This document shows, piece after piece, positions 4,541 through 61,300 of a stretch of DNA of 64,000 nt. Positions within the stretch are counted from its first letter, which is position 1; each line of letters opens with the position of its first letter. The position numbers were made by a program, and so were the translations under genes. Under the pieces are notes generated by a model, which worked only from the letters and a program-made list of their open reading frames with translations, had not been told where the DNA came from and did no database searches. The DNA lies in NCBI GenBank assembly GCA_006384855.1, contig VCJN01002251.1, forward strand, positions 155,319-219,318, in the 5' to 3' direction. The DNA is from Tetraselmis striata. Its lineage: Eukaryota > Chlorophyta > Chlorodendrophyceae > Chlorodendrales > Chlorodendraceae.

Positions 4541-6673
4541 ATTTTACATCTCGACTTCAAAACGGCGGCGCCCACGCAGTATACATAAGCGAGCCGTTCG
4601 GTATAATGGGTGCACACAATCAAAATAAGCATTGTTACTTTGTTACCATTGTTACTTTCGGGCTGCGACCCGCTAAGCGTTTAAGCGGCGCTCTCCGCCG
4701 TACGCGCGCACGCCCGTGCATGTACGATTCTCGAAGTGGGCAAATTTCCTCGTCGTGAGGCTGGCCCGCCGCGTGCGAACCACGGTGCGCGGACCGACGG
4801 TGCGGGACTTCGCGGACGCGGGTGCGGGTACAAGTAAAGTTCTCCCCGGGTCATCGGCCGAAGCCGCCTCAACACTTGACCTCGTGCGCCAATTGCAGTC
4901 GTAGGTCTGGCATAGCCAGTACACAATTGCCTCATTCGAACCCCAAAGCATGGCTACATGCTACTATGGCTACCATGCATGGTTACCATGCATCATGGCA
5001 GCATGGCAACTTGTAATGCATCAAGCGGATAAACCCGGGACACGGGTCCGAACGATATTGTCCGGAAATGACAGAGCCGGGTGCAAGTGCGGGTGCGACC
5101 GAGTACCGCGCACCGTTTATAGTTACACCGTGACCTTTATTATGTAGTACGCGCGTATTTTGCGATTTTTGCGCATTTAATTGATGACCGGCGATTTCCG
5201 TTATTCCGGCGCGCGCTAGCGGGCGGGTATCGCTGATTTTTGAAACGCATACGCCAAGCGCGGACATGGGCTCGCGACGCAAGATAGCTGCAATAAGATC
5301 ACTCCGCATATTCTCATCTTCGGGCATAGAACTACCTACCCTAGACAACCCTAGATGTACACCGCGTGAATGCGATGTAACTCATTTACATGTCGCAAGA
5401 TATAGCACTTCACCAATGTTAGATGTAAATGCGCATATGTCCACGATACGCCATTGCATTCATTGTGCGAGGCGGGAAAATGAGGTTACATGCCCACAAG
5501 GCAGCAACATGTGGCGTGCACCCTGGGCATGGATTAAGACCCACACGTTCATTAATTTTGACGCATGTAGTACAGTACCTCTACCTCTACCTCGTATTAT
5601 TACCGGTATCGCGGATGCGCCCATGCGCCCGCCACCTCCGCCCCCAGCACAATCATGCCAACAGATGGGATGATCGCGCGGAGGGGCAGTCGATCGCTCG
5701 ATGTAAGTGTGGAGTGTGCGACACTATAACACCAAATAAATCATGGCACCTGGTACACTAATAAGCTTATTAACTACCGCGTTGCGGGATTTTCTTTGAG
5801 AGCATAGGTGCCACTTCTTCCGGCCGAGTTTTGGGAGGTTGTATCAGACGGCTATACAATTGGTAGTCGTCCCTACTCTTCTAGTCGTATCACCGTGATA
5901 TCTAGCAATGGTGCCGTGTATCTAGTCGTCGCGCCACGAAGGATTATTGCTACATGTATCCATCCTTAATAGCGACTCTGCAAGGGTTTCACTGTTGCGA
6001 GTCATGTCCCGGGGTTGGTTGAAGTTTTTTCCTTAGCAACTATGGGTAAAAGTAAAATTAAAGTTCGCCCCGGGACATCGGCCGAAGCTGCCCCATCGCT
6101 TGACCTCTTGCGCCAACTGCAATCGTAGGTATGGCATTGCCCGTAGACCATTGCCTCGTGCATTCGAACCCCGAAGGACAACTCCATTAACCGGGTAAAC
6201 CGAGGACACGACGACGGGACGATATTCATTGCCGAAATACATCGACCAGGAATCGATCCCGGGACCTTTGGTGTACGAGACGACCTATCAACCGAGCGGA
6301 CAAGGGATGTTGGGTTGTTAGTTCCGGAGTTTAGAGACTTTACTAGTAGTCATGGTATTGCGTCAACACCTTGGGACTTAACTGCCATTATTTTGGGCGG
6401 GGTCCCCCACTCCCTTCACGGCGCCATGGATTTAATTTACTAGGAATGGATTTTTTTTCCAACTATGGCGCCAGGCCCTCCCTCACATTGCCTTTTTGTT
6501 GCACATGTATCGCACTCCTGAAATGCTTTGCTCCGCGGGTTGGGGCTTGCCCCAACTCGCAATACTGCTCGAATGGGCCGACGCCCAAACGGGTAGGGCG
6601 GACCTTTCGTGGTGGGTGCCGGGTATTTTGATGGCAGTGTTTTAGACGGTGATCCAACAGTGTTTCGTCACTG
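4541..6673. other. repeat-derived intergenic region
   Basis: No gene is supported. Two diverged copies of a repeat are visible at about 4837-5070 and 6056-6250; both begin AAAGTTC followed by CCCCGGG, and both carry ATTCGAACCCC. A short fragment at about 5972-6012 resembles the 3' end of the tRNA-like repeat found at 6674 and 41551. A patch rich in ATGG/CATG words lies at about 4948-5005. Confidence 0.55.
6231..6306 (-). repeat. degenerate tRNA-like sequence
   Basis: Read on the minus strand it contains a D-arm-like GCTCGGTTGATAGG and a T-arm-like CCGGGATCGATTCCTGG (5-bp stem allowing one G-T pair, 7-nt loop). The acceptor halves pair only partly and I could not fold a good anticodon stem. 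I therefore call it a tRNA-derived repeat rather than a functional tRNA gene. Confidence 0.4.
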
Positions 6674-6831
6674 GCCCTCAATTAATCTTGCAGAATGCTT
6701 CGGCAATTTGCTTGTTGACTATAACGGAGCGTAGCCTACCCAGGCCTTTCCGTAACTAGATCGCTGCGTAAACGGACGTCGCAGAGACGCTGCAAGGGTT
6801 TCACTCGTACCAGTCCTGTCCCGGGGGCAAG
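6674..6831 (+). repeat. dispersed tRNA-like (SINE-like) repeat, copy 1
   Basis: About 158 bp similar to 41551-41709; shared words include CTTGCAGAATGCTTCGGCAA and GACGCTGCAAGGGTTTCAC. Copy 2 retains an exact Pol III B-box-like GGTTCGAATCC; in this copy that stretch is mutated. Autonomous transcription is not shown. Confidence 0.65.
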
Positions 6832-6991
6832 AAAACAAAGGATGTACCAACTACTGGTGTGAATTATAAAAACTACTACTGTACTGGTAGTACGGGTACC
6901 CTATACCTCTACGGGTACTACTACGGGTAGGGCCATACTGGGTGTACACACGGCTAGGATGCTGTATCTATATATATGTATATATATAGAG

Positions 6992-7018
6992 ATTTACCCA
7001 AGGAGGCACTGTTTGCCA
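6992..7018. repeat. DIRS split direct repeat B2
   Basis: The 27-bp core matches B1 at about 7291-7317. A weaker similarity with indels continues for about 50 bp beyond the core in both copies. Confidence 0.8.
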
Positions 7019-7113
7019 AAGAATGTCAGCTCGCTTACATCGAAGGCTAAGACAAGAACCACAGGCTTGGCCTGGGTGTCTCCTAGCGCAAAAGATGGCT
7101 GAGGGTGGGTGGG

Positions 7114-7291
7114 TGCGCGAGCCGGTTGAGGCGAGCGCAAAGCAGAGAGTGCCTGTGCCCGAGGGTGGATCCCTCAGGTCATAGTGCTGGTGCGGGCCGG
7201 CAGGCCTTAGTCCGTGCGCCGACCTCGGGGGTCGTGCGCAGTACAACATAGCTAATGTACTGTAAACCTCTAGATGACTACATCTGACCAT
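7114..7291. repeat. DIRS split direct repeat A2
   Basis: 178 bp, near-identical to A1. It is fused directly to B1, so the element's downstream end reads B1-A2-spacer-B2. This arrangement fits a circular DNA intermediate in established models of YR retroelement integration. Confidence 0.93.
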
Positions 7292-7317
7292 TTACCCAAG
7301 GAGGCACTGTTTGCCAG
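7291..7317. repeat. DIRS split direct repeat B1
   Basis: Adjacent to A2 and just downstream of the recombinase stop codon. It shares its core with B2. Confidence 0.8.
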
Positions 7318-7347
7318 AGACGAAAGCCAAAGGCTAGCACAGGAAGC

Positions 7348-8586
7348 TTAGGCCGGCGGCCGGACGGGGACGAGCCAACCGAAGAACCTCCAGGCCGCAG
7401 GAGTCGGGCGCATGGTCGGGTCGATGTACTTCCCGGTGACCACCTCGCTGTTCTTCGACCAGTCGCCCATGTGTTTGATGGCCGGCAAGGGGACGCCGAC
7501 GCAGCTTGCTGCGGAAGCGGCACCCTTGCGTAAACTGTGCGATGTCCACTTGAAACCGGTGGGAGGTCGGGCGCCTGCCGCCAGGTAGGCTTCCCGCAAC
7601 CACTCGGTAAGAGTGGCTGAAACCGACCAAGTGGCGGAAGACTCCAGCGGGGAGATGCTCCAGAACTTGGGCGGCGGGCTGGCGCCGTAGAAACGGCGGC
7701 AGTAGGCGTCGCGACTGACGGTGTACCAGTCCAGCAGGTCAGCGAAGTCCGGAACGGCGGCGATGGGCAGATTTATCAGGGGCTTAGCGGAAACCCTCGT
7801 ACGCTGGTCGCCTTTCTGTTTGCGGACGTACAGTAGAATGCTTCCGGACGGCCGGTCGACCACTAAATCACCGGTCTCGCAGCTAATGCCGGACTCCGCG
7901 CGGCACAGGAAGACGTACGCCGTAATCGTCGCGAGCGCGGCTCTGAAAGCGCGGATGTCCGCAATATTAGCGGGTTCCCACACCAATGTCTGCCGAAATC
8001 CAATCGCGGTGTTCAGGATGCCAGCCGCCACGGGCGCAGGTAGGGCGACGCGGACGTCTTCCGCCGCAAGACGCTCTTGCTGGATAGCCAGGCCGCGGCG
8101 CGCGTCGGCTACCATTTCGCCGAGGGCGATAGGCTGGCGCTGATGGTCGCGGAAGTACTTGTTGATGGACGAGTAGTACTGTTGAAGGGACTCCGCGCCG
8201 ACGGTACCTTGCATGCCTAGCCAGGCAGTGTAGCGGACGATTGTGCTGGTAGTAGCCTGCAGCGGGCGTAAGCCTTCCTGCTCGCAGAAAGTAGCGAAAG
8301 AGCGCATGCCGCTGTCGTAGTTGCGGTAGGTGCCGGCCGCCAGCGAACCCGTAAGCAACCCGAGCGCCGCTTGACCAACGTCGTCGGTCCCCAACAAAGA
8401 CCGGAGCTCGGCCGCCATTGATGCCGACCAGGGCGCCTCCGAGCCGGCGCGCGCCGCAAGCCGGTAGCGCGCGCGTCGAGTGTGGGACAGGCGGCCCGGG
8501 TATTGCACACCGTACTGCACACCGTACTGCACACCGTACTGCACACCGTACTGCACACCGTACTGCAGCGACGGCTGTACGGTCAT
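7348..8586 (-). CDS. DIRS tyrosine recombinase
   Basis: About 412 codons from the ATG at 8586; the frame is open further upstream but there shadows the methylase. All catalytic signatures are present: Arg in FLCRAESG, H-x-x-R in TSHSLRKGA, a HMGDW box, and the Tyr nucleophile in TGKYIDP. A SAM-like core-binding half precedes these (TYRNYDSGMRSFATFC...). The N-terminus contains five VQYG repeats encoded by a 12-bp tandem repeat. This enzyme should integrate the circular cDNA intermediate by site-specific recombination, replacing a DDE integrase. Its end lies about 30 nt from repeat B1. It looks intact. Confidence 0.92.
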   Translation of the reverse strand: MTVQPSLQYGVQYGVQYGVQYGVQYGVQYPGRLSHTRRARYRLAARAGSEAPWSASMAAELRSLLGTDDVGQAALGLLTGSLAAGTYRNYDSGMRSFATFCEQEGLRPLQATTSTIVRYTAWLGMQGTVGAESLQQYYSSINKYFRDHQRQPIALGEMVADARRGLAIQQERLAAEDVRVALPAPVAAGILNTAIGFRQTLVWEPANIADIRAFRAALATITAYVFLCRAESGISCETGDLVVDRPSGSILLYVRKQKGDQRTRVSAKPLINLPIAAVPDFADLLDWYTVSRDAYCRRFYGASPPPKFWSISPLESSATWSVSATLTEWLREAYLAAGARPPTGFKWTSHSLRKGAASAASCVGVPLPAIKHMGDWSKNSEVVTGKYIDPTMRPTPAAWRFFGWLVPVRPPA

Positions 8587-10591
8587 AGCCCGGCCTAGCG
8601 ACCCACGGCGGAGGTGCAGCCATGCCGGCGTGGCAGCCGAAAAGCCACGACGCTCCAGCCGGGCAGTCCGACCCCCGCGCGCGTTCCCCGCCGCCCAGAA
8701 AGAAGAGGTCGCGGGTAGGCGGGTAGACAATCGTCTCGGTGGCGAGGTCTTGCAGCAGCTGGTACCAACGCCGTCCTGGCCAGTGCGGTGCGATGACCGT
8801 GGCGGCCGCGCCCGACTGTCGCAGTTTGTCCGCCAAATCGTCCAACAAACCCCACGGAGGATTGCAATAATTGTGCTCCCTGCGCCAGAACTCGTCCGGC
8901 AAATGGAGAGAATCCACCGCTTCGCAATGCGGGTCGCGCCAGCGGGAATTGTACCGTGGAAGTTGCGTATTTTCCATCGACGCAAATCTGTCGACGGTGT
9001 GCGGACCCCACAAGCGCTGCAGGTACGCGAATATCCGCGGATTGAGCTGCCAGTCGGAGTCGTCCAGCTCCCTGCTGAGTCGGTCCGCCCAAACGTTGGC
9101 TGCAGACTGGATGTACCGGGGCCTGATGGAGATGTCGTGGATATCCAGGAGGTGCCACAGCTTGCGGAGCTCCTCCATCATGACGGGCGACCGAGAGGTA
9201 AGGTTGGTCAGCGCTGCCACTACGGCCGTGTTGTCCTCGTGCAGTAAGACGCGCCGTCCTCGGAGCTGGGGCAGGAACGATTCGACCGCGTGACGTACCG
9301 CGCGAAGCTCCTTCCACGTGATGTGACGCGAGCGGTCGTCCTCGTACCAGAAGCCGCGCGCCTGGTAAGCGCTGTTGTTGTTGAGCACAGCCCCCCATCC
9401 GTACGAGCTGGAGTCCGCGTGCAGATACGCGGTCTCCACAGGCTTGTACATAGAGCGACCGTTGTGCTGCGCAGGTACCTGGGTCCACCACTCTAGGTCG
9501 CGGCGCAGCTGGTTTGTCATCTTGACGCGCCCGCCCCAGCCCTGCCGGGTGGCGAGGACGCAGTGCAGCTCCCGCAAAAAGAAACGGGCCGGCGTAACTG
9601 CCAAGTACAGGAACTGCGCCTTGCCCGCAAAGGACGCCAGCTGCCGAGCTGGGAGCCAGCGCTTGTTGGAGGCTGCGCGGCCAAGGAGCGAACGGGCGGC
9701 CTTGGCTAGAGCGATGAGCTTCTCCTCGGGGGCGCGGAACTCGCCGCGCTTCAGGTCGATGATCAGGCCCAGGTGAGGGCCGACCTGGGTGGGCTCCCAG
9801 ACTCCCTTGTTGGGGTTGCGCAGTAGGCCCAGGCGGTCCAGCAAGGTGCTTAACCGGACGCGTAGCTCCAGGGCTGCCTCGCGGGAGTCCGCGAGGAAAA
9901 GGAAGTCGTCCATATAGGGTAGGAGCCGCTCGCCCCGCCAGCGAGTGTTGCGCAGGAAACGGCGAGTAGGCTTGGACGGGGCCGTGGGAGGCAACGCTGG
10001 GTCGCGCCGCTTCAGGGGCGTCCGCAGGTAGTCCGTAAAGGCCGCCGTCAATTTGCAGAAGTAGTACGACGAGCCTGTCCAACCCATCGGTAGGCACGCA
10101 AGTCGCCACAGCTCCCCTCGGTAGTTCACGGTAAAGAAGTCGCGGTCCTCCTCCCGAATCCCAAGGGCGTAGTAGCCATCGGCCAGGTCCATCGACACGA
10201 ACCAATCTCCCGCGCGCGCCAGGTGCCGCAGGTGCTTGAGCGTTTCGTAGGACATCGTGAAAGTCTTGCACCACTTGTTGAGCTCCCGTAGGTCGATGAT
10301 GAGGCGCCATTTGTTGGTGCCGGGTTTGGGGACTAGAAACATTCTGGATACCCACTTGTTGCAGTGTCCTCGCTCCCACGCGCCAATCGCCTCGAAGCGG
10401 GGCAGTTCTGTAGCCATGAAATCCAGTTGTGCCTGAGTGGCGTCGCGCATAGAGACGCCGTGGTTGTAGGGGCGAGGGCGTCGCCCGTTCTTGAAGCGTA
10501 TCCGGACCCCTTGGCGGATCCAACTCAAGACTTGCCCGCTCGCGCCGATGCTTTCCCAGTCTCGCCATCTTCTCCGCACGCGGTGTCGCAT
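7967..10591 (-). CDS. DIRS reverse transcriptase / RNase H / methylase-like polyprotein
   Basis: The chosen ATG is at 10591; the frame stays open upstream but there overlaps gag. The RT domain has WRLIIDLRELN, MDLADGYYALGI and the catalytic YMDD in LLPYMDDFLF. RNase H follows, with acidic residues in LHADSSSYGWG, TWKELRAV and LHEDNTAVV. The DIRS-type adenine-methylase-like domain has CNPPWGLL and a YPPTRDLFFLGG end, near 8700. Beyond that, the frame reads through a 12-bp repeat (as AVRC repeats) and overlaps the recombinase frame for about 620 nt. The overlap tail is Arg/Pro-rich and may not be conserved protein. The product should copy element RNA into DNA. No inactivating stop is seen in the RT-RH-MT core. 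Confidence 0.9.
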   Translation of the reverse strand: MRHRVRRRWRDWESIGASGQVLSWIRQGVRIRFKNGRRPRPYNHGVSMRDATQAQLDFMATELPRFEAIGAWERGHCNKWVSRMFLVPKPGTNKWRLIIDLRELNKWCKTFTMSYETLKHLRHLARAGDWFVSMDLADGYYALGIREEDRDFFTVNYRGELWRLACLPMGWTGSSYYFCKLTAAFTDYLRTPLKRRDPALPPTAPSKPTRRFLRNTRWRGERLLPYMDDFLFLADSREAALELRVRLSTLLDRLGLLRNPNKGVWEPTQVGPHLGLIIDLKRGEFRAPEEKLIALAKAARSLLGRAASNKRWLPARQLASFAGKAQFLYLAVTPARFFLRELHCVLATRQGWGGRVKMTNQLRRDLEWWTQVPAQHNGRSMYKPVETAYLHADSSSYGWGAVLNNNSAYQARGFWYEDDRSRHITWKELRAVRHAVESFLPQLRGRRVLLHEDNTAVVAALTNLTSRSPVMMEELRKLWHLLDIHDISIRPRYIQSAANVWADRLSRELDDSDWQLNPRIFAYLQRLWGPHTVDRFASMENTQLPRYNSRWRDPHCEAVDSLHLPDEFWRREHNYCNPPWGLLDDLADKLRQSGAAATVIAPHWPGRRWYQLLQDLATETIVYPPTRDLFFLGGGERARGSDCPAGASWLFGCHAGMAAPPPWVARPGYDRTAVAAVRCAVRCAVRCAVRCAVRCAIPGPPVPHSTRALPACGARRLGGALVGINGGRAPVFVGDRRRWSSGARVAYGFAGGRHLPQLRQRHALFRYFLRAGRLTPAAGYYQHNRPLHCLARHARYRRRGVPSTVLLVHQQVLPRPSAPAYRPRRNGSRRAPRPGYPARASCGGRRPRRPTCARGGWHPEHRDWISADIGVGTR
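8505..8566. repeat. 12-bp minisatellite inside RT/YR overlap
   Basis: About five copies of a 12-mer with core CTGCACACCGTA. The length is a multiple of three, so it stays open in both overlapping frames, as VQYG in the recombinase and AVRC in the polyprotein. Confidence 0.9.
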
Positions 10592-10637
10592 GTAGAGGGA
10601 GGTAGGCGTACAGGAGTCGGCGCGGCGGGCCACACCG

Positions 10638-11692
10638 TCACTTGGTGACCTTCGCCTTGGCCTTGTCGGACGCTGCGGCTGTCGCTGCGGCCTTCCGTGC
10701 CGCAGCGGCTTGCTCGCGTTGCTTGCGCCTCTCGGCGGACTCCGTGGGGGCGGGCTTGTCGGGGGTAGCCTTGGCGAACGCGGCCGCGGCACGGGCCTTG
10801 CCCGCTGCGGAAAGGCTGATCTCGAGGGTCTTGTCGTCGAACGCTCGGCGGAGTTGGTCGAGTTGCCCGGACACGGCGATGCGCCGTGGGGTGCAGAACT
10901 GTGCGTGGGCGAGCTCGGCGAAAACACGGTCCGCCTCTGTAGCCGTTGGTCCATTCTTGGCGAGCTGGAGGTAGCCCAACCGGGAACGGGTGGCCTCCTC
11001 CGTCGCCAGGTGGGTGCGGTAGCAGGCGCGGAGCTCGGCAAGGGCCGCAGCCTTGCCTGCCGGCGTAGCAGACTCGGTCGAAAGCGACTCCAGAGCGCAG
11101 CGCATCGCCTCGTTGGCGCAGCTACTGAAGAAGGCATAGCAGCCTAGGTGCAGGTATTCGTCGTACGCTGCCTGACTCCGCTTATCCGCGAGGGCGCGGG
11201 CGGTGTCGTCGGTCAGGGTCCACAAGCGGGGCTCGTCGACGTCGCGCGGGGGGCGCTCCAGACCGGGGGGGATGACTCGGCCGTAGTAGGCAAAGTCGAC
11301 GTACTCGAGCTCGTTGTCGGGTGCGTCTAGCTCAGCAGGAAGGGGCTCTCGCGCTCCTTGCTCACCACCCTCGGGCGCAGGCGTGCCGCGGGGTTGGCTG
11401 GCTGGGTACCTTCGGGAGGAAGCGGGTTAGTGGGGGGGGCGAGTCGAGCGAGCAAGGCAGCCGTAGCAGCCTCAAACTGCCCGGCCAGCCGCTTCTCCAG
11501 GGCTTCCGCTTGGGCCGTCAGGCGTTTCTCCAATTCCGCGACAGATGCCGCCGTGGCGCCGCCCGGGGCGTCGTCCGCTAAGGCGTCTTCCGGTACAGGG
11601 CGAGGGGGCATCCTGCTGTCGCGGGGTGGGGAAGGTGTAGCGTCTCGGGAGGCTGAGGCTCGGGTCCGAGTCGGCATAGAGTAAGCTGACAC
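10638..11692 (-). pseudogene. DIRS gag-like region, split by a frame change
   Basis: Two overlapping reading frames lie where gag is expected. The first (11692-11327, about 121 codons) is Pro/Arg-rich and then a heptad-like Glu/Leu/Ala stretch (about residues 50-75) that could be a coiled coil. The second frame stays open upstream of 11327 and continues to the stop at 10638. It includes an acidic stretch with EYVDFAYYGR and ends in a Lys/Ala-rich tail suited to nucleic-acid binding. The two frames overlap for tens of codons, so one indel or a programmed shift would join them. No Cys-His zinc knuckle is visible. The gag role is inferred from position and composition. Confidence 0.6.
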
Positions 11693-11721
11693 TCTGCTCG
11701 ACTGCTAGAGTCGAGACTGCT

Positions 11722-11899
11722 TGCGCGAGCCGGTTGAGGCGAGCAGAGAGCAGAGAGTGCCTGTGCCCGAGGGTGGATCCCTCAGGTCATAGTGCTGGTG
11801 CGGGCCGGCAGGCCTTAGTCCGTGCGCCGACCTCGGGGGTCGTGCGCAGTACAACATAGCTAATGTACTGTAAACCTCTAGATGACTACATCTGACCAT
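11722..11899. repeat. DIRS split direct repeat A1
   Basis: 178-bp terminal repeat from TGCGCGAGCCGGTTGAG to CATCTGACCAT. It matches A2 at 7114-7291 except for about three substitutions near its start. Confidence 0.93.
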
Positions 11900-12860
11900 A
11901 TATGTCTATATTTACATATGTACATATATATCTTATAGGAGTGAATTGCTGTTAATTTCAAAAATAAATACAAATAGTATTTTACTATTAATCAATAACC
12001 CCCCTCAAAATAATTTAAAATTTCCCTGGTTTGAAGATGAATGCTGAGTATTATTTTGCTGCAATGTGAAGAATGCGTCAAGGAGCTTGCAAATCACATC
12101 AGAGTTTACAAAGGGTGGTCGGGAATGGTTAGTTCCATCGCACACTAGCTCTAGATAGATAGGTAGCAGCCCAACATCACTCAAGAGCAATGGCGTCGTC
12201 ATCAGCTGGGGGTGCTAGGGGTGTTGCGCCCAACTCAACGAGCTTGTTATCTGCCTCAATGGCGTCTAGCATTGCATCCTCCACCACGTTCAACACATCA
12301 TGATCATAATTCTCAAGTAGGCGCAGAGTGACAGAGCAGAACAACAGCATGATAACATTGTCATGCTCAAGAGAGGCACGGCCTTTGGTGGCCACTCGCT
12401 TATATGAACAGACTTCAAGCGCTCCACACGGCAAGCACCGCGCCAAGACGCTGGCTCATCGCGCAGAAAGTCACCATGGCCGCCTGCTCGTGACGTGGCG
12501 ACATGTGTTGTGTACTTTCTGGAGCCTCTCGGCGGTACGGAAGGCGATCGAAACACTGTGCGACGGCCGCTACGCGGTTGTCCGCCGCTTGCTGCGGCTC
12601 CAGGCGCGCCGCACGCCCGAAACTGTTACTTACTACTACCAGTAAAGTACCGGTAACAAATTAAATTTGTTTCTGTCCTTTTTGTAATTCACACCAGTAA
12701 ATTATCCGTAACATTAATTAATCGTATTTTACTTACTAGGGAACTACGATTAAATGTTCCGGTTTCCGGCTGGGAATATCTCCGGAATTTGCGGGGGGGG
12801 GGGGGGGGGGGGGGGGGGGTCGTTACATTATTCGGTGACATTACGTCAGAACCGAAAAGG
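11900..12860. other. region between DIRS element and Cys-rich relic
   Basis: AT-rich next to the element. A minus-strand open frame at 12446-12177 (89 codons from a TTG, containing HDNVIMLLFCSVTLRLLENY) looks protein-like and could be the 3' end of a gene or relic, but I do not recognise it. A pure G run lies at about 12792-12819. Confidence 0.35.
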
Positions 12861-15234: not shown

Positions 15235-18200
15235 ATGGCAAGCGCAGTGTGGCCGCCTCCAGCTCAGGAAATCCGTCGCAAGTGCCCGACTTGCGACTTC
15301 GCATGGCTCGACAAATACCGCAAAGATGTGGGTGTCGGCGTGCCCTCGTATGCGGCTCACTCGCGCGCGCGAGGTCGTTAATTAATTATACGTTTTTGGA
15401 GTCAGATATGGGTAGCCCACGTCAGCGAGCCGCTGAGTTTTCTGAGCCAGACGCGCTCTTGCTGATGCGGTGGCTTCCCCGCGCCTGTGTGCGCCCGCAG
15501 GAGTGCCCGAAATGCCTGTGTAAGCTTTCCACCGCGTTCAAGGACCAGGAGCGGCGGCAGCCAGGAGAGGTGTCAACCTACAAGTACAGCCCGAGGTGAG
15601 CCGAAGCAGGCAGCTGCGGCCGATGCCCCGCTGGATGACTATTCTGCAGCTTTGAGGCTGTATATAAAATATATTAAGAGGAATGTTTCGTACCATTTTT
15701 CGGCTTCAATCGGATGTCCCCGGCTGCTGGAAGTCCGGAGTAAGTTTCGGCGAAACGCCCCAAGCGCCCCTCAATAGCCACTTCTTACAAGCCGCATTTG
15801 CATTCTCCACTGCCGAGCTCGCAGCGAGGCGTTCCAGAGCGAGAGCGGCAAGTGCAAGAAGGGCGGCCATCACCAGTGGAAGTTCGGAAAGTGCCTCAAG
15901 TGCGACGCGGCGGAGGGATATGAACGGCACACCAAGGAGCCGGTGCGCGTGCCCCCCCCCCCCCCCCCCCCCCCACCGCCATCAGCGGCTCGGCATGTAC
16001 CCGTCAAAGACATATACCTTATATGGGTGTATATAAATGCTTCAGAAGAAGCTCAACCATATGGGGCGACAAGGTACCTAGTGTCTCCTCTGAAAGGCCT
16101 ATGCATGTCATGAGTTTGCGTTGTCGCTTTGGAGATTGCTTCTCGTTGCCTTGTGCGCATAGTCCCATAGCCTGAGCGCTCTAGGTCAGCTTGGAGAGCG
16201 TGGTTCGGAGTCACGATGTAGACATGCTTGGTAGTATACATCGATTACTAACTCACCATCGATCAGGGTATCTGTGTACTGCGCATAGCCTCCCCCCCTC
16301 CCATAGTCGCCTCCATCTCTGCCAATTCATCCGTATGTCCTCGGTCCCTGGCAGAGATCTCACTGTGGCTGGACCTACTGGATGTGCAGCCGCCCCTTCC
16401 CTATGTGCGCCAGGACTCCAAGCCGAAGAAGGTGCCAGAGAAGAAGCGTCACTGCGTGACATGTGACCACACCTGGATGGACAGGTCCCCCCCCCCCCCC
16501 CCCCCCCCCCCCCTCCTCACAGCCTCGCCCTCTGGCTCTTGGTTTGGAATACTTTTGGGAAGCGTGTCTTGTGAAACTCACGCCCCCCCCCCTCCCCCCT
16601 CCCCCTCCGCTCTCCATCCTCTCCAGGTATCGCAAGAATGAATGCCCAAAGTGCCTCAATCCTATGAAATTGGCTGACGTTCCTCCTGAGCTAAAGCCCT
16701 CCGATGCCATGGAGTCCTCCAGCGGCAGCTGCCCCAAAGGCGGCCCCCACACCTGGAAGGTGCGACAGCAGTCTCCCCTCCCCTGACGCTCTCCTTCCTA
16801 CCCCCCTCTCACCACCACCACCACCACCGCCGCCGCCATTTCATGTCATCTCTACCTTATATATGTTGTCCCTTATAAGTATACGTAAATATGGAGAGAT
16901 GTGAGAGATAGAACCAAACATCGAGCGCCGGCTCGTACAGCACTGACAGGCGTCACCCATGCCGCTGATATCCCAGTTTGGGAAGTGCAACAAGTGCAAT
17001 CTGGCGGAGGGCTACGAGAAGCACTCCACAAAGCTGGTACCTTGTCCCTCTCCTCTACGGCAGCTACCCGCATTTGGCATTTTGCCTCAGTCCCGGCCGC
17101 AGAGTTGCACATCCCTGTCTCCACCTCAGCATGGATCGCTGGCCCTGCGTGTCGTTTACAGATGCGGCAGCAGAGCAACTCCTTCTCGGAGGTCCGCAAG
17201 ACCTGCCCCACCTGTGACTTCAGCTGGCTGGACCGCTACGGAAAGAACGAGGTAGGACCTATGCCAGGGCAGCACACCACATGCCCCCTGTTTGTGCTGT
17301 CTGACACATGCTGCCCGGTTTCCGCTTCTGATGTTGCCCCTGGTGCCTTGCAGTGCCCAAAGTGCATATCGCCCCTTGTCAAGCAGCCGCCCTCCATGGC
17401 CAGGCGGCACTCAATGACCTCTGTAAGAGTCCCACCTCCTCCCTGCCCACCCACAATCAAAGCACATTGACTTTAAATCGCTTTAGGCGCGGATCGTGGC
17501 ACATGTTGACTGCAGTGTTGATGGCGGATGATGAGGGGGTTGCAGGGCAGGCGTGGGGCGAGAAGGCGGAGGGGGGGGGAAGGGGAAGGAAAGGGGACAA
17601 CATCTCCAGCAATCATCCTTGTGATACACTAACCACAGCTCCTGGCCTGATCCTGCAGACGCCGTCGCCAGAGAGCAAGCCTACAGAAACGCGCAAGACC
17701 TGTCCTACGTGTGCTTACAAATGGCTCGACCGCTACGGGAAGAACGAGGCGCGTTCCAAAAACACTTGACAAGAGATGTCTATTCCATGTCTGCGAAATA
17801 CATGATACTAATGCGGGGCTGCAGCTGGCTGGTAGTGTTCCTGCCTCCTGACTCGCTGCTTCCCATTCGATCTCTGCCTTGCGCAGTGCCCAAAATGTCT
17901 GAGCCCGCTGGAGTCAAAGCATGACCTGGTGCCACGGCCAAACCGCAAGGTATCGCGGCATCCTCCCCCCCCCCCCTCTCTCTCCTCCAGGAGCGCGGGC
18001 GTTGTTCCCTGACGCAATGTTAAGTTCGGATGACATCCGATTTGTGGTTGGTCATTGCTGTGCCATGACAACTGCTAATGCCATTGTGGGTACGTTATTG
18101 TGCCGTTGGGCAGATAGCAGCGTCATTCATATGGAGCGAATGCTGTGTTACTCCTTAGTGTAGTGTAGTGTAGTGTAGTGTAGTGTCGTGTCGTGTGGTG

Positions 18201-19368
18201 TAGTGTAGTGTAGTGTAGTGTAGTGTAGTGTAATGTAGTGTAGTGTAGTGTAGTGTAGTGTAGTGTAGTGTGGTGTAGTGTGGTGTAGTGTAATGTAGTG
18301 TAGTGTAGTGTAGTGTAGTGTAGTGTAGTGTGGTGTAGTGTGGTGTAGTGTGGTGTAGTGTAATGTAGTGTAGTGTAGTGTAGTGTAGTATAGTGTAGTG
18401 TAGTGTAGTGTAGTGTAGTGTAGTGTAGTGTAGTGTAGTGTAGTGTAGTGTAGTGTAGTGTGGTGTGGTGTAGTGTGGTGTAGTGTAGTGTACCCTGTAG
18501 TGTACCCTGTAGTGTACCCTGTAGTGTAGCCGCGGCACGCCACACACACGACTGATTCAAGTGCGACCATGTACAGGACTTGAACACCCTTGACTTTGGG
18601 GGTCGCGGGTATCCTATGACGGCGAGGTGTTTGTGGGTATGGAATGCAGTGCCCAAGTGCCGTGTGTTGCTGCGTCCTTCTGCGCCCAGCAACTCCCCTC
18701 AGGGACTGCTGAGGCTGTTGCCACCGCTGAGGCTGGCGCATTGTGTCGCTTGCCTCTTGCAGCTGGCGGAGCTCGAGTGCGTGGCCTCCGGCACGGAAGT
18801 CCGCAAGACCTGCCCCACCTGCTCCTTCAGCTGGTACGCACTCCACCTGGTACATTTGCCCAGCAATCTGGCCTTAATGACAAAGACTATGTATTCTCTT
18901 CATCTCCTGTCTTTCAGTGGTTGGTTTTGTTGGTGCCAGGCTCGACAAGTACGGGAAGCCCGAGTGCCCCAAGTGCTTGTCACCGCTCAACGACAAGCCG
19001 CGGCGCAAGGCGGGCGAGGTGTCCACCTACAAGTACGCTCCGGCAGACGCCATGGAGTCGGTGGCGGGGCAGTGCCGCAAGGGCGGCCCCCACCACTTCA
19101 AGGTGTGAAACACCCACGGCTCTATCTTTCCCAGTGCGGCCTTACTTTTTACATACTTCCTTCCTTACTGCCCATCCACAACCTGGTGGGGCGCTGAAGC
19201 AGGGCGGCTCCAGTGCTTTACATATTGTTGTAGCCGTTGTTTAATTGGCAATGAGGATTCTATCTGACTTGCTTCCGACTGACATTGTTGGCTGCTGTCG
19301 AACCCATGCTGCAGTTCGGCAAGTGCCGACAGTGTGGGCTGGGAGAGGGCAGCATGCACTACACAGGC
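15235..19368 (+). CDS. multi-exon protein of tandem zinc-ribbon half-modules (unknown family)
   Basis: Thirteen exons fit splice rules and phase: 15235-15327, 15501-15595, 15825-15942, 16414-16484, 16627-16759, 16977-about 17036, 17162-17251, 17354-17422, 17659-17748, 17887-17949, 18763-18833, 18940-19102, 19315-19368. Three module types recur. Module a (exons 1, 4, 7, 9, 11) is K-[TRH]-C-x-T-C-x(3)-W-[LM]-D. Module b (2, 5, 8, 10, 12) is CPKC followed by a Pro/Lys tail, sometimes GEVSTYKY. Module c (3, 6, 13) is FGKC-x2-C followed by EG; GG[PH]H-x-[WF]-K precedes it across the exon border or within it. Modules a and b together give CxxC...CxxC zinc ribbons split by introns near the same site (KNE/CPKC). 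Exon 9 appears to use a GC donor. A further exon ending at 19954 (CNRCRKRE...CRDC) may be the true C-terminus. The function is not recognised; metal binding is a safe inference. Confidence 0.7.
18155..18528. repeat. TAGTG pentanucleotide satellite in intron
   Basis: About 370 bp of TAGTG repeats with GGTGT and TAATG variants, ending in three TGTACCCTGTAG-type units. It lies in the intron between zinc-ribbon exons ending 17949 and starting 18763, and creates spurious His/Thr/Tyr ORFs on the minus strand. Confidence 0.95.
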
Positions 19369-19864
19369 GTACGCTGACCACTGCTGAGATTGACCAAGGG
19401 ACGCCCGCCTCCACATACTGCGCCACTGCCAACCCCCTCGCAGCGCTGCCAACCCATGAAGACGGCATCGACCGCGGCATCAATCCGTCTGCAGTCACAG
19501 TTCCTCGACCTGCCAACGTGCAGGACGTCATCGTCTTTCCGTCTGAATTGGTGTCTGCTTTGCTTCAACTGCCACATCCCCCCCTCTCCACAACGCCCCA
19601 CGCAACCCACTGGAAATGTCCCCCATAGACCCGCAGCCACCAGCTGCAGTGTAAGCATCATTAACATTATTACGAATTCTGAAAGTGCAACTAAGGGCTA
19701 AACCTGGCAGTACTGTAATGCCGCAGTGCCGCCCACCCAGCCGATTGTCCGCTGACTGGATTTATTTGCCACACGTCTCCCCCTCCTATCCCGGAGCAGT
19801 CCTGCTTCACACGCAATTCAGCCAATCTATTTGTCTTGTGTATTCTGATCCTTATTTTCGATAT

Positions 19865-19954
19865 ACATGCAACAGATGCCGCAAGAGGGAGTTTCCAGCT
19901 CCGGGAATGTGCGCGATCTGTGTTGACATGCATTGGACGTGCCGTGACTGTTAA
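19865..19954 (+). CDS. candidate terminal exon with three Cys pairs
   Basis: The frame ends YTCNRCRKREF...MCAICVDMHWTCRDC then stop at 19952-19954, giving C-x2-C three times. It fits the metal-binding character of the preceding gene. The phase from the exon ending 19368 only matches with a GC donor, so membership is unproven. Confidence 0.35.
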   Translation, partial: TCNRCRKREFPAPGMCAICVDMHWTCRDC

Positions 19955-21030
19955 ATGCCACCCAGCACCACAACGCCCCAGCGGTGGAAGCGCAACTGGC
20001 GCCATTCGAAGTTTCTCGCGCCCAGGGTATTGTGTGTGAGGAGTCCTTGCTGCATGCCAAAGATGTGGGTGGTCACAAGTGCATGTTTCCCATGAGGACC
20101 TTGTCAGTATCGACCTCTCGAGATGTCAAAACTATTTCTAATAACAAGGGTAATGTGGATATCCGGGTACCATATCGCCTAATGTGGAAAGTACATATCC
20201 GGATGTATATAAATATAGAGCAGTTCCAGCTAGCTCACAGCCCCGCAGCTCGGACGATTTGCCGGGGTAGCGGGTTTTTTGGGCGCGTGATGCTGATGCC
20301 ACAAATCTACTTGCTGTAGTCGATATTAATCCGTAGTGGCAATATGAACCCAATGTAACAATGAAAGATATGCACACGGGGATACCGCCGGTAATTAGTT
20401 GACTCCCCATAATTAAGGGCAACTGCAAAACAAATAAATTCGCCCGATATCTGTGACGATATGTCGTAGCTGGAACCACGCGACAGTACTTATTAGTCTT
20501 TATTACATCAGCGCTTTCACAAATGCGCACTACGCGACAGTACTCGTGTATTGATTAGTTGTCGCCATTTCGGGTAGCTTGCATGTTTCGGTACGAAGTA
20601 TTGATCGACGTATAAATAAGCTACATCATCAGCTTTATTATATTGCCGAATTTTAAGTTGAGTCTGGTTTTGCCAAGAACGGTCGCGAAGGCTGTTTTAC
20701 AAGGTTGAGAGCCGAAATTGGCAGGAAGGCTTATTGGTGAAAGCATGGACGGAAAACAGAGTCAAAGGGGCGCTGTGTGTAACACAGCGAAACTGGAAGA
20801 TGGCATGCTCAGCTGCTACCGCTGCTTGAATGTTTGCTCGTGCTGCACACGAACGGGCGCAGCGACGGGTGAATTACGAACCCGTACCACTTAGCAACAC
20901 ATGTAGCCAAAAAGGCGGGTAAAAAAAGAGGAAACCCCATAACCTAGTTTTTATCATTTAAAGTTAAGTATGGTTTTGCATGTGCAGAGCCAATGAAGGG
21001 AGCGGCAGACGAAGCAGGGGCAGCGCCATG
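19955..21030. other. intergenic, mostly featureless
   Basis: No gene supported. At 20498-20530 there is a 33-bp match to the terminus of the fold-back element at 25926-26271 (CTTTATTACATCAG then GCTTTCACAAATGCGCA). It is flanked on both sides by CGCGACAGTACT. Confidence 0.5.
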
Positions 21031-35500: not shown

Positions 35501-36801
35501 GGCCTTTCCCTCCAAGTGGGCCGGGCCGCGCACCTTGTCCCGCCAGGACCGCCTCCAAAGGCCGACCTTGGCGCCCGGGCCCGGGATGCCGACGTTGATA
35601 ACGCGCGGCGCCTCCAACGGCGCCACCTCCGCGTCGGGCTGCGTCACAAACTCGCCGCTTGGGTCCTCCGGCACGCCCGCCGCGTTGAGCACCGGCGCAC
35701 CGGGCGGCGGGAGCGGGGGCTTGGAGTCGCACGTGGCGCCCGAGCCGGGGTACACCCACGCGTCGCTGCGCGGGTCCTTCTTCCCATACCTGCGCCCCGA
35801 AGCAGCGTGGGGTCAGCACGGTTCCGGGCACTCAGTCACCAGCTGGCACGCGGCGCGGCTAGTGACCAGTCCTTGCCGAAGCCAAGCGGCAGAATGGGAG
35901 GAGGCAGAGCAAGTGAAGCTTGAGTAACGTTTCAGCTATAGCAGCTCAGAAAGTTACGGGTGCAGACGAGATAGTAAGAGCACTGAGAATATCAACCTGC
36001 CCTGCCCTGCCTCCCAGAGGTCCAACGTAGACGAAAACATAGCCAAACTATAGCGAATGTTGTTAGCAAGCCCAGCGTGAGGCTTGTAATAAAGGTTCTT
36101 ATAGGTGCATGGGCACGCGTAGTGGCAACGCCCAGCACGGCACAGACTTTTGCACCAGTCCCTTGTGTTGCTGTGGACTGTGTAAGCGTATGTCTTACAT
36201 GTGTGTGTTGTGCATACATATCAGGTCGGGAGGAGGAAGGGGCTGACGCACCCCTGCACGCTGGCGAACATGATGCTCTGTGGGTCCTCCACGCCCAGCC
36301 ACGGCTTGTAGCAGGGGAACATCTGCGAGCGGCAGGGCAAGGCACCATCGCAACGTGAGGCGGCAGCGAGGGAGGGGCAATGCGATGCTGCCTCCGCCTA
36401 CAGTGCTGCCAACAAGTGCTGCCATGGTGGTTGCAGGGTCTGGCGCAGAGAGAGACCCCCATAGAGGCGCAAGAGGGATGCGGTGGGAGAGGGCGTTGGA
36501 GAGGGGGCAGGAGGGGGGGGGGGGGGGGAGGGGGGGGCACCTGGTAGCCCTCCGACAGCGGCGTGCGGAACGCGTGCTTCCTCATGGTGGGTACCGTGTT
36601 GACGGTGCAGGCCTCAGTACCGTTGCCGTGGTGCACGTCAAAGTCCAGGATGCACACGCGGCGGAGGCCTGCCACACCCGAGGAGGAAGGAGGGGGAAAG
36701 GGGAGGAGGGGGGGTGTCAGCTGGGCCACGTGGCGGCGAGGGAGACCTTGCCGGCATTGAAATGGGGGTTGCACGTGGGACGTCAGGCGCGGGTGGGTGT
36801 T

Positions 36802-36832
<31 letters not shown>

Positions 36833-37313
36833 GGGGCGGGGGAGCTCCGCACCTGCGTGCCGATAGGTGGACATGGCGTACGACGCGCCGATGGCCACGT
36901 TGTTGAGGAGGCAGAAGCCGTGGGAGCCGTGCGAGTCGTTCTTGCAGGTGACGACGCCGGAGGGGCCCGCGTGGTGGCCGGGCGGGCGCACCGCGCAGAA
37001 CGCGTTCTTCGCCTGGAGGAGGAGGCGGCGGCGGCGGGTATGACGGGGCCAGGGCGCGTGTTTAGCCCCCGGTGGACTCAAGCGGTCGAATTTCGCGTCA
37101 CGCGAGGCAAGCCCAGAGCTCAGAGCTATCCTCAGAGAAACATCAGCCAACCAACGCAATTCACAACAACAATGAATAATATCTCCGCAATTCACGCTCT
37201 GTCCCCTTCCAATTATGGAGCTGGGACAGCGGCAGCTTTCCAAATTCTTCGCACTCCTATGCGCCAGCCCATACGTCCCCGGGGGATGTCTTGTCCTCGC
37301 CAAGCAAGGAGAA

Positions 37314-55358: not shown

Positions 55359-58300
55359 ACACCCCTGCACATAAGTTTGGGGTCCCTTTTCGGCAGTCTC
55401 AAGACTTCACAAGTCTAGGGTACCTGAACGTAGGGTATATGAGATGAAACCCTGGAATCTCAGAGGGCTTTATAAAACCTGCATGACGAGTGGCTCAAAC
55501 CGAAGCTTAATGACCTTTGACTAGGGAATCACGCTGCACTTGGTGCGTGGATGGGCGTCGCCTGCAACTGCACCAAAACCGGGGTCGGTATCACGCACAC
55601 GCCGACGCGCGTGCATAGGCCACCAAACGGCGGGATGGCCATGAACGCGTGAGGAAACACATTGGCGAGGGGCTCGGGTGCATTTGGTTGGGGTGCAGCC
55701 GTGTGGGCGGCGGCCAGTGCATGTCGCGTTGCGATACTGGCATGGCATCAGTGTCGGCCACGCGCGGCAACACCCCCTTGGCTTCAAAACGCTATAACTT
55801 CTCAGGGTTTGCTCAGAAAAACTTTTTAAAAGTATCACGCCATTCCTCGTTCAATTCTGCGTCGGGAACACTCTTCCATAATCACAAAATCGACTTTTTG
55901 GGTCTCCGGAAAAAATCCCCAAAGATGATCATCCAAGTTGCCCCTCACTGCCTCATGTGCCCACCCATATCGGGCGCGTGGCTTTGCGCCAAGTGCGTGT
56001 CTAAGCCCCATACTCAGTTGCGCGAGAGCGTTATGTATGTGGATGACCACGGACCACCAACACTTGGCATGTGCCACCTCCTAGCGATACACACATCTAC
56101 CAGCCAAAATGCCATTTTCCACAGCATTTTTCAAGGAATTTCATATTAATCAAAATCCACGCCCCTACCGCGCCACCCCGCCCACGAAACGGTGCAACTG
56201 GCATTCCACCACGCGCCCCCATAGTAGAGCATTGCCCTACGCCAAGGGGGCCATCGAGCGCCTCTCCTACGTGCGTTCGCCACAGAAACAGCAGCATTTT
56301 CACCCCAAAACTGCTCCCCACAGTGGCCAACTTGACGTTGGGGTGTCACGTCGTGCCTATAGCGACATGCTTTCAGTGGCCTACACGCACGGTGTGTGCA
56401 ACTTATGCCAAGGGCCGTATCCACCGAGTTTGGTGCGACGAGTGCCGCTATTTCCATAGGTTTGGACGGTTGGCGCAACCCACAACTTTCTGGCGCCAAC
56501 GCACCATGCAATGATTTCGCGTTTTTGAAAGGGCGCCCACAAATGGTCGTGTTGTCGCGCGGGTGGGTATAAAGCGCACAATAGGCGTTCGCCCGAACTA
56601 TTCCCACTGTAGTTAGCATGTATGCACATGCAGCCGGCGTTATCCTCGCCCATGCATGCGCTTTGCGATCGAAAATGCAAAACCCGGACTTATGTGGAGG
56701 GGTGTGCGCCGCACCAAGCGCGCTCGACGAGGTCGCAATAAGGCGTCTTGGGACAGTGAGCCCTTTCGAGCCCGTGGCTCGCATGTGGATGCGTCATGGG
56801 CATATGCAGCCAGTAGGAGCATTGGGGTGATTCAAACATGCCGCGTCGGCCGTATATGGCCGAATGACATATGGCCAACACACCCCTGCACATAAGTTTG
56901 GGGTCCCTTTTCGGCAGTCTCAAGACTTCACAAGTCTAGGGTACCTGAACGTAGGGTATATGAGATGAAACCCTGGAATCTCAGAGGGCTTTATAAAACC
57001 TGCATGACGAGTGGCTCAAACCGAAGCTTAATGACCTTTGACTAGGGAATCACGCTGCACTTGGTGCGTGGATGGGCGTCGCCTGCAACTGCACCAAAAC
57101 CGGGGTCGGTATCACGCACACGCCGACGCGCGTGCATAGGCCACCAAACGGCGGGATGGCCATGAACGCGTGAGGAAACACATTGGCGAGGGGCTCGGGT
57201 GCATTTGGTTGGGGTGCAGCCGTGTGGGCGGCGGCCAGTGCATGTCGCGTTGCGATACTGGCATGGCATCAGTGTCGGCCACGCGCGGCAACACCCCCTT
57301 GGCTTCAAAACGCTATAACTTCTCAGGGTTTGCTCAGAAAAACTTTTTAAAAGTATCACGCCATTCCTCGTTCAATTCTGCGTCGGGAACACTCTTCCAT
57401 AATCACAAAATCGACTTTTTGGGTCTCCGGAAAAAATCCCCAAAGATGATCATCCAAGTTGCCCCTCACTGCCTCATGTGCCCACCCATATCGGGCGCGT
57501 GGCTTTGCGCCAAGTGCGTGTCTAAGCCCCATACTCAGTTGCGCGAGAGCGTTATGTATGTGGATGACCACGGACCACCAACACTTGGCATGTGCCACCT
57601 CCTAGCGATACACACATCTACCAGCCAAAATGCCATTTTCCACAGCATTTTTCAAGGAATTTCATATTAATCAAAATCCACGCCCCTACCGCGCCACCCC
57701 GCCCACGAAACGGTGCAACTGGCATTCCACCACGCGCCCCCATAGTAGAGCATTGCCCTACGCCAAGGGGGCCATCGAGCGCCTCTCCTACGTGCGTTCG
57801 CCACAGAAACAGCAGCATTTTCACCCCAAAACTGCTCCCCACAGTGGCCAACTTGACGTTGGGGTGTCACGTCGTGCCTATAGCGACATGCTTTCAGTGG
57901 CCTACACGCACGGTGTGTGCAACTTATGCCAAGGGCCGTATCCACCGAGTTTGGTGCGACGAGTGCCGCTATTTCCATAGGTTTGGACGGTTGGCGCAAC
58001 CCACAACTTTCTGGCGCCAACGCACCATGCAATGATTTCGCGTTTTTGAAAGGGCGCCCACAAATGGTCGTGTTGTCGCGCGGGTGGGTATAAAGCGCAC
58101 AATAGGCGTTCGCCCGAACTATTCCCACTGTAGTTAGCATGTATGCACATGCAGCCGGCGTTATCCTCGCCCATGCATGCGCTTTGCGATCGAAAATGCA
58201 AAACCCGGACTTATGTGGAGGGGTGTGCGCCGCACCAAGCGCGCTCGACGAGGTCGCAATAAGGCGTCTTGGGACAGTGAGCCCTTTCGAGCCCGTGGCT

Positions 58301-61300
58301 CGCATGTGGATGCGTCATGGGCATATGCAGCCAGTAGGAGCATTGGGGTGATTCAAACATGCCGCGTCGGCCGTATATGGCCGAATGACATATGGCCAAC
58401 ACACCCCTGCACATAAGTTTGGGGTCCCTTTTCGGCAGTCTCAAGACTTCACAAGTCTAGGGTACCTGAACGTAGGGTATATGAGATGAAACCCTGGAAT
58501 CTCAGAGGGCTTTATAAAACCTGCATGACGAGTGGCTCAAACCGAAGCTTAATGACCTTTGACTAGGGAATCACGCTGCACTTGGTGCGTGGATGGGCGT
58601 CGCCTGCAACTGCACCAAAACCGGGGTCGGTATCACGCACACGCCGACGCGCGTGCATAGGCCACCAAACGGCGGGATGGCCATGAACGCGTGAGGAAAC
58701 ACATTGGCGAGGGGCTCGGGTGCATTTGGTTGGGGTGCAGCCGTGTGGGCGGCGGCCAGTGCATGTCGCGTTGCGATACTGGCATGGCATCAGTGTCGGC
58801 CACGCGCGGCAACACCCCCTTGGCTTCAAAACGCTATAACTTCTCAGGGTTTGCTCAGAAAAACTTTTTAAAAGTATCACGCCATTCCTCGTTCAATTCT
58901 GCGTCGGGAACACTCTTCCATAATCACAAAATCGACTTTTTGGGTCTCCGGAAAAAATCCCCAAAGATGATCATCCAAGTTGCCCCTCACTGCCTCATGT
59001 GCCCACCCATATCGGGCGCGTGGCTTTGCGCCAAGTGCGTGTCTAAGCCCCATACTCAGTTGCGCGAGAGCGTTATGTATGTGGATGACCACGGACCACC
59101 AACACTTGGCATGTGCCACCTCCTAGCGATACACACATCTACCAGCCAAAATGCCATTTTCCACAGCATTTTTCAAGGAATTTCATATTAATCAAAATCC
59201 ACGCCCCTACCGCGCCACCCCGCCCACGAAACGGTGCAACTGGCATTCCACCACGCGCCCCCATAGTAGAGCATTGCCCTACGCCAAGGGGGCCATCGAG
59301 CGCCTCTCCTACGTGCGTTCGCCACAGAAACAGCAGCATTTTCACCCCAAAACTGCTCCCCACAGTGGCCAACTTGACGTTGGGGTGTCACGTCGTGCCT
59401 ATAGCGACATGCTTTCAGTGGCCTACACGCACGGTGTGTGCAACTTATGCCAAGGGCCGTATCCACCGAGTTTGGTGCGACGAGTGCCGCTATTTCCATA
59501 GGTTTGGACGGTTGGCGCAACCCACAACTTTCTGGCGCCAACGCACCATGCAATGATTTCGCGTTTTTGAAAGGGCGCCCACAAATGGTCGTGTTGTCGC
59601 GCGGGTGGGTATAAAGCGCACAATAGGCGTTCGCCCGAACTATTCCCACTGTAGTTAGCATGTATGCACATGCAGCCGGCGTTATCCTCGCCCATGCATG
59701 CGCTTTGCGATCGAAAATGCAAAACCCGGACTTATGTGGAGGGGTGTGCGCCGCACCAAGCGCGCTCGACGAGGTCGCAATAAGGCGTCTTGGGACAGTG
59801 AGCCCTTTCGAGCCCGTGGCTCGCATGTGGATGCGTCATGGGCATATGCAGCCAGTAGGAGCATTGGGGTGATTCAAACATGCCGCGTCGGCCGTATATG
59901 GCCGAATGACATATGGCCAACACACCCCTGCACATAAGTTTGGGGTCCCTTTTCGGCAGTCTCAAGACTTCACAAGTCTAGGGTACCTGAACGTAGGGTA
60001 TATGAGATGAAACCCTGGAATCTCAGAGGGCTTTATAAAACCTGCATGACGAGTGGCTCAAACCGAAGCTTAATGACCTTTGACTAGGGAATCACGCTGC
60101 ACTTGGTGCGTGGATGGGCGTCGCCTGCAACTGCACCAAAACCGGGGTCGGTATCACGCACACGCCGACGCGCGTGCATAGGCCACCAAACGGCGGGATG
60201 GCCATGAACGCGTGAGGAAACACATTGGCGAGGGGCTCGGGTGCATTTGGTTGGGGTGCAGCCGTGTGGGCGGCGGCCAGTGCATGTCGCGTTGCGATAC
60301 TGGCATGGCATCAGTGTCGGCCACGCGCGGCAACACCCCCTTGGCTTCAAAACGCTATAACTTCTCAGGGTTTGCTCAGAAAAACTTTTTAAAAGTATCA
60401 CGCCATTCCTCGTTCAATTCTGCGTCGGGAACACTCTTCCATAATCACAAAATCGACTTTTTGGGTCTCCGGAAAAAATCCCCAAAGATGATCATCCAAG
60501 TTGCCCCTCACTGCCTCATGTGCCCACCCATATCGGGCGCGTGGCTTTGCGCCAAGTGCGTGTCTAAGCCCCATACTCAGTTGCGCGAGAGCGTTATGTA
60601 TGTGGATGACCACGGACCACCAACACTTGGCATGTGCCACCTCCTAGCGATACACACATCTACCAGCCAAAATGCCATTTTCCACAGCATTTTTCAAGGA
60701 ATTTCATATTAATCAAAATCCACGCCCCTACCGCGCCACCCCGCCCACGAAACGGTGCAACTGGCATTCCACCACGCGCCCCCATAGTAGAGCATTGCCC
60801 TACGCCAAGGGGGCCATCGAGCGCCTCTCCTACGTGCGTTCGCCACAGAAACAGCAGCATTTTCACCCCAAAACTGCTCCCCACAGTGGCCAACTTGACG
60901 TTGGGGTGTCACGTCGTGCCTATAGCGACATGCTTTCAGTGGCCTACACGCACGGTGTGTGCAACTTATGCCAAGGGCCGTATCCACCGAGTTTGGTGCG
61001 ACGAGTGCCGCTATTTCCATAGGTTTGGACGGTTGGCGCAACCCACAACTTTCTGGCGCCAACGCACCATGCAATGATTTCGCGTTTTTGAAAGGGCGCC
61101 CACAAATGGTCGTGTTGTCGCGCGGGTGGGTATAAAGCGCACAATAGGCGTTCGCCCGAACTATTCCCACTGTAGTTAGCATGTATGCACATGCAGCCGG
61201 CGTTATCCTCGCCCATGCATGCGCTTTGCGATCGAAAATGCAAAACCCGGACTTATGTGGAGGGGTGTGCGCCGCACCAAGCGCGCTCGACGAGGTCGCA

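Follow-up and report, generated by a model that had tools for sequence, protein, structure and literature searches.

We analysed a stretch of 64,000 nucleotides of the green alga Tetraselmis striata (assembly GCA_006384855.1, 224,097,584 bases in 2903 contigs; contig VCJN01002251.1, positions 155,319 to 219,318 of the forward strand, or G000:C1817:155319-219318), hereafter called the window. At window positions 15235–19377 (+), a spliced frame encodes a protein of 400 residues in which two kinds of small Cys-rich site recur, five of a four-Cys type (ab) and three of a Cys-His-Cys-Cys type (c). The locus looks like a real spliced gene under constraint. As to its product, the reading that we tentatively prefer, while holding it with somewhat less than even confidence, is that of a zinc-ribbon repeat adaptor, perhaps binding nucleic acid, which grew by duplication of exon modules.

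Gene model and putative metal-site modules

The exon chain was obtained by three-frame translation, followed by a script that joined exons whose borders had been picked by eye at splice signals. The resulting frame comprises 13 exons and 1203 bases, and runs from the ATG at 15235 to the TGA at 19375–19377. Eleven of the 12 introns have gt..ag borders, and the ninth (17749–17886, following exon 9) is of the gc..ag type and would need a GC donor (gcgcgt); this whole intron is the same in both haplotypes of this genome.

The deduced protein has an isoelectric point (pI) of 9.23. Its ab sites (C-x2-C-x12-C-x2-C) and c sites (C-x5-H-x6-C-x2-C) follow one another in the order abc-abc-ab-ab-abc. The original prediction had described, on this stretch, five CPTC-like half-ribbons alternating with five CPKC half-ribbons, and this alternation is borne out: the first halves read CPTC, CVTC, CPTC, CPTC and CPTC, and every pair has exactly the ab spacing. 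Likewise, the predicted GG[HP]H-x-[WF]K-FGKC-x2-C element appears three times, with the spacing of a c site. When the protein was shuffled 20,000 times, the maxima reached were two ab and one c site, each counted separately. Two CxxC knuckles at a fixed spacing, the mark of the zinc ribbon as a structural kind, are found in the five ab sites of the window gene, as well as in two and three sites of its paralogues C986 and C2604, respectively. Over the 12 ab units compared, the four Cys together with W, D, K, P and K are invariant; over the eight full modules, the ligands and W, D, Y, K, P and K in ab do not vary, nor do the G and E positions around c.

Since 29 of its 31 Cys belong to paired sites, those at residues 38 and 308 being the exceptions, this 400-residue protein might be thought to act as a metallothionein-like metal buffer, whose Cys sites serve to hold zinc. 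We consider this improbable, since the invariant non-ligand W, D, K, P and G would be needless in a pure buffer; in addition, the spacing of the ab and c Cys is that of structural zinc sites.

The modules are distributed over the exons, all on the + strand, as follows. Exon 1 (15235–15327) carries the start ATG and the a half of module 1 (CPTC), with an N-terminus, MxxxxWPPPA, that is alike in C986. Exon 2 (15501–15595), which has gt/ag borders, carries the b half of module 1 (CPKC) and a GEVSTYKY linker, while exon 3 (15825–15942) holds c site 1, unsplit by any intron. Module 2 is spread over exon 4 (16390–16484; CVTC), whose 5′ edge is uncertain, 16390 being one pick among several in-frame acceptors, exon 5 (16627–16759; CPKC, then c site 2 as far as HTWK) and exon 6 (16977–17036; the end of c site 2, FGKCNKC). 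In modules 3 and 4 the a halves, with KNE at the end, lie in exon 7 (17162–17251) and exon 9 (17659–17748), the latter being 82% identical in DNA to exon 7 over 57 nt and preceding the GC donor; the corresponding CPKC halves occupy exon 8 (17354–17422) and exon 10 (17887–17949). Module 5 consists of exon 11 (18763–18833; CPTCSFSW), 85% identical to exon 7 over 48 nt, of exon 12 (18940–19102), with CPKC, a second GEVSTYKY linker and the beginning of c site 3, and of exon 13 (19315–19377), with the end of c site 3 (FGKCRQC) and the TGA. Parts of exons 2 and 5 are 78% and 80% identical, respectively, to exon 12. The earlier description of one half-module per exon fits this layout roughly; intron sites vary, a single c site has no intron, and exon 12 joins a b half, a linker and part of a c site.

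Related loci, the second haplotype and constraint

Protein searches of the same genome, in which locus counts are lower bounds, placed the module at at least five loci: C1817/C564 (one locus in two haplotypes), C986, C2604, C502 and C218. At C986, four exons splice in frame into a protein of 204 residues (abc-abc, pI 9.59) with all 14 Cys in sites, and at C2604 nine exons give 267 residues (abc-abc-abc, pI 8.92) with all 21 Cys in sites. C502 yielded partial pieces only and looks incomplete; its ab pair, RKKCPTCEYSWIDRYK followed by KNECPKC, was read by hand and does not stay in frame with the exon start chosen for splicing. C218, where two ab units were read by hand, was matched in one search only (E-values 0.00698 and 0.0191); the weaker matches at C2099 (E 1.79) and C721 (E 5.1) were left out. 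We also looked for signs that the exons belong to a known repetitive element and saw none in these searches, the module being present at the loci listed rather than in the many genome copies of a repetitive or transposable element.

Bases 1–28800 of C564 are collinear with window positions 1–26200 in reverse, at 94.7–99.5% identity (matches longer than 250 bases), two insertions aside. On this ground a separate duplicate was rejected, and we regard C564 as the other haplotype. The exons of the two haplotypes differ at 2 of 1203 bases, with no gap column; in the introns, 45 of 2940 bases differ and there are 159 gap columns (Fisher test on substitutions, p 3e-5). As a caution, 125 of the 159 gap columns sit in intron 10, where a (TAGTG)n array and, after it, a 12-base repeat take up 18156–18528. 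Of the two exonic changes, whose effects were read by hand, one replaces the Gly at residue 312, which belongs to no site, by Cys, and the other is silent, in the codon of the ligand Cys 387. NG86 estimates of non-synonymous (dN) and synonymous (dS) substitution against C986 gave dN 0.269 and dS 1.383 for the first module (101 codons), and dN 0.286 and dS 0.654 for the last (86 codons).

These figures bear on the idea that the locus is a relic, either decaying or non-coding, whose motifs survive as fossils. The incomplete look of C502, the intron with a GC donor and the residue altered between haplotypes would all be in keeping with such decay; set against them are the absence of indels from the 1203 exon bases, in contrast to the 159 intron gap columns, the substitution contrast between exons and introns, and the excess of dS over dN. 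We regard a relic as highly improbable.

The gene had been predicted to extend to 19954, whereas the frame stops at 19377. A possible last exon at about 19868–19954 was discarded: its frame, as read by hand, is out of phase with the donor-like GT at 19369, the other haplotype has A instead of G at 19920, which turns the TGT codon at 19919–19921 from Cys to Tyr and breaks the CxxC, and both paralogues end where the stop of the window gene would match. In all three genes the stop lies 8 to 11 residues past the last EG. Because of the TGA at 19375–19377, the agreement with the paralogue ends and the haplotype difference that breaks the Cys codon, we place 19378–19954 (+) outside the gene, as a most likely non-coding 3′ flank, with 19377 as the most likely gene end. 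In this flank 14 haplotype differences were listed, up to 19960. TGTAA, a green-algal signal downstream of genes, occurs at +273 past the stop, and was found downstream of three genes; together with the general look of the DNA, this would suit an alga.

Other features were observed along the window. The segment 6992–11986 is without collinear counterpart in C564 and overlaps a frame in which reverse transcriptase is matched above its cut-off, and RNase H and Dam below theirs; this set, we assume, recalls retrotransposons of the DIRS type. C564, in turn, carries about 5.9 kb extra at window 20318–20642, including three pieces like window 6992–11986. A histone deacetylase stretch at 35995–37077 (−) scored 27.0 bits against a Pfam cut-off of 27.9. 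Finally, 55619–64000, near the end of C1817, is a tandem array of 1521-base units; those starting at 55619, 57140, 58661 and 60182, the four that were compared, are identical at 1521 of 1521 bases.

Probable module duplication and intron positions

Exons of different modules align at 73–85% DNA identity over short stretches, and introns do not, save for one 28-base match; the duplications therefore look old. At the protein level, the ab part of window module 1 is nearest to module 1 of C986 (81%), while window units 3, 4 and 5 are mutually 81–85% alike, and module 1 of C2604 is also 77–81% like these three. As for the c part, window module 5 and module 2 of C986 share 69%, and window modules 1 and 2 share 73%. 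On these identities, the middle modules would best be interpreted either as having been gained later or as having been lost from C986.

All five ab pairs of the window gene are split by an intron. The original prediction had put these introns at nearly the same site, after KNE and before CPKC; this holds within 3 nt in modules 1, 3 and 4, whereas in modules 2 and 5 the introns lie 16 and 25 nt upstream. Specifically, offsets were counted and entered by hand, with the opening base of the CPKC run as zero, for 13 ab units at five loci, including the hand-read pair of C502 and the two hand-read units of C218. They are −3, −16, 0, 0 and −25 in window modules 1 to 5, −3 in C986, −28, −25 and 0, +2 in C2604, −1 and 0 in C218, and −10 in C502, so that 13 introns fall in 12 of the 13 units at eight sites. 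Identical-site pairs number eight, where 1.30 would be expected, a count reached by 75 of 200,000 random placements; seven remain, against 1.10 expected, when the C986 unit is omitted (183 of 200,000). In the c sites, four of six introns lie exactly at WK|FG or its equivalent, with six identical-site pairs, where 0.28 would be expected (25 of 200,000). All these random placements assume independent modules, which related modules are not. Shared intron sites are what module duplication predicts and, together with the likeness of the exons, they support the exon duplication within the gene that had been proposed from the sequence.

The spread of sites within a single loop would go beyond duplication alone, and would need intron sliding, loss or repeated gain. 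Introns in the 12-residue ab loop, or at its edge, are found in 12 of the 13 ab units at the five loci. In the three spliced genes, nine of the 23 introns fall in the loops, which make up 370 of 2622 positions (p 0.0028, tested after being noticed); the intron of C2604 module 3, 2 nt beyond the loop, was excluded from the nine. A paired zinc unit (ribbon plus Cys-His-Cys-Cys knuckle), forming a eukaryotic family unnamed in the libraries searched, in which the loop repeatedly gained introns and the half-sites became exchangeable exons, is an account of these positions that we put forward with considerable doubt. In our preferred reading, modules the size of an exon would have been duplicated long ago, the starting point being perhaps a shorter gene with the abc-abc order that C986 has.

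Similarity searches and putative function

The family had gone unrecognised in the original prediction. None of the three full proteins (the 400-residue protein, C986 and C2604) reached a curated cut-off in Pfam or NCBIfam, nor did any of the three module pieces scanned against Pfam. Zn_ribbon_6 (PF07191) and DZR_2 (PF18912) resemble the ab unit in being small and tandem, with two CPxC/CPKC knuckles per site. They differ from the window family, whose 12-residue loop includes an invariant W, D and K, and in which ab alternates with a Cys-His-Cys-Cys site. Zn_ribbon_6 matched C986 at E 0.012 (16.0 bits) and C2604 at E 0.87 (10.1 bits) against a cut-off of 25, and DZR_2 matched C986 at E 0.058 (13.7 bits, cut-off 27); none of the three proteins or three pieces reached the gathering cut-off of either, and the 400-residue protein had no match to them at E 1. 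The best Pfam score for this protein was given by DUF7569 (PF24453; E 0.00011, 22.6 bits), below the 27-bit cut-off in all three proteins (17.4 in C986 and 12.4 in C2604) and without a single passing stretch in the 400-residue protein.

The strongest of these matches below cut-off was to the NCBIfam profile NF001385, for bacterial adenylate kinase, which has, in our reading, a similar Cys spacing. It matched three stretches of the 400-residue protein (E 3.7e-7), scoring 30 bits against a 315-bit cut-off; in the best stretch, 30 of the 213 profile positions are covered, a part which we take to be the zinc lid of the enzyme. In C2604, TIGR00155 (PqiA) scored 19.7 against 260 bits (E 0.00037). 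Among the PHROGs, which have no curated cut-off, the matches were to families of unknown function, the best being phrog_6586 (E 7.9e-7, 30 bits, four stretches, about 28 of 129 profile positions). Because whole-protein scores sum across repeats, we read these three sets of scores as matches of Cys spacing, yet they do show that some likeness to the ab unit exists. The RanBP2-type zinc finger follows the pattern W-x-C-x(2,4)-C-x10-C-x2-C, from which the window family departs by its loop of 12 and a W that comes after the second Cys; the Pfam scans reported no RanBP2 zinc finger, whether for the pieces (up to E 10) or for the three proteins (up to E 1).

A sequence search of the PDB with a single protein gave no match, and two profiles gave four and eight matches, the best at E 0.37 (whole module) and 0.065 (35-residue c profile). 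One likeness lies in the large-virus protein M1249L (8xy6), where CPKGGLHDFQDKKCVKC has the c-site spacing, C-x5-H-x6-C-x2-C; kinship was dropped at these non-significant values, chance or convergence being the alternatives. In IMG/VR, 7, 2 and 2 stretches met short peptide patterns, as did 11 stretches in GTDB genomes; none was confirmed and the DNA pattern was unmatched in both collections, where only places first matching a short peptide pattern exactly are confirmed and distant relatives could escape. No relative was confirmed in phage records. The searches for relatives covered the genome itself, the PDB, and prokaryote, viral and phage collections, other eukaryotes being outside their scope. 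In the portions of the literature available to us, motif letters retrieved no paper and combined themes nothing of use.

In the reading that we prefer, this nuclear gene would encode a basic string of eight small metal sites, five zinc ribbons and three Cys-His-Cys-Cys knuckles, each probably binding zinc. Repeated basic and aromatic faces, with the invariant W, D and K between the CxxC pairs, would bind nucleic acid, more probably RNA than DNA. Binding of nucleic acid is favoured because the three paralogues are basic (pI 8.9–9.6) and the W, D and K of the ribbon loop never vary, as would be expected of residues that make surface contacts. Several points weigh against this. Basic charge beside Cys is common in zinc sites and is no proof of nucleic-acid binding, and with every profile below its curated cut-off no function would be transferable to the 400-residue protein. 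The sole fold attempt, an AlphaFold2 run without alignment on c site 1 alone, predicted a short hairpin at low confidence (mean predicted local distance difference test 60.1), too weak for a fold search. In addition, the exon chain is a predicted one, its borders having been picked by eye.

The same zinc-ribbon repeat protein could instead be a protein–protein scaffold, with the zinc modules as partner faces and the linkers as docking motifs, which we hold to be nearly as likely as the nucleic-acid adaptor. The conserved linkers noted in the original prediction recur in part, GEVSTYKY being present in two of the three abc modules of the window gene, and AMES or AFQS in all three; among the eight aligned modules, GEVST[YF]K is found in four and A[MFL][EQ]S in six. 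Moreover, one of the two ab units of C218 ends a longer reading frame (L057, oriented 6280–7060) that contains KSRRVRFADTVT, presumably resembling a protein phosphatase 1 docking motif, and that matches no Pfam family at or above cut-off. Against a scaffold, no interaction domain reached the Pfam cut-off in the proteins scanned, and no partner is known. The binding scaffold first suggested for the 400-residue protein may still prove right, and the observation behind it is partly confirmed and holds in substance.

In conclusion, the locus offers a compact case of protein growth by duplication of exon modules, in which module order, intron sites and paralogues can all be read, and it points to a candidate zinc-repeat family for which the libraries searched have no curated name. 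If binding to RNA or DNA is true, the number of ab units, which is two, three or five in the three paralogues, would provide a natural test of the effects of repeat number.

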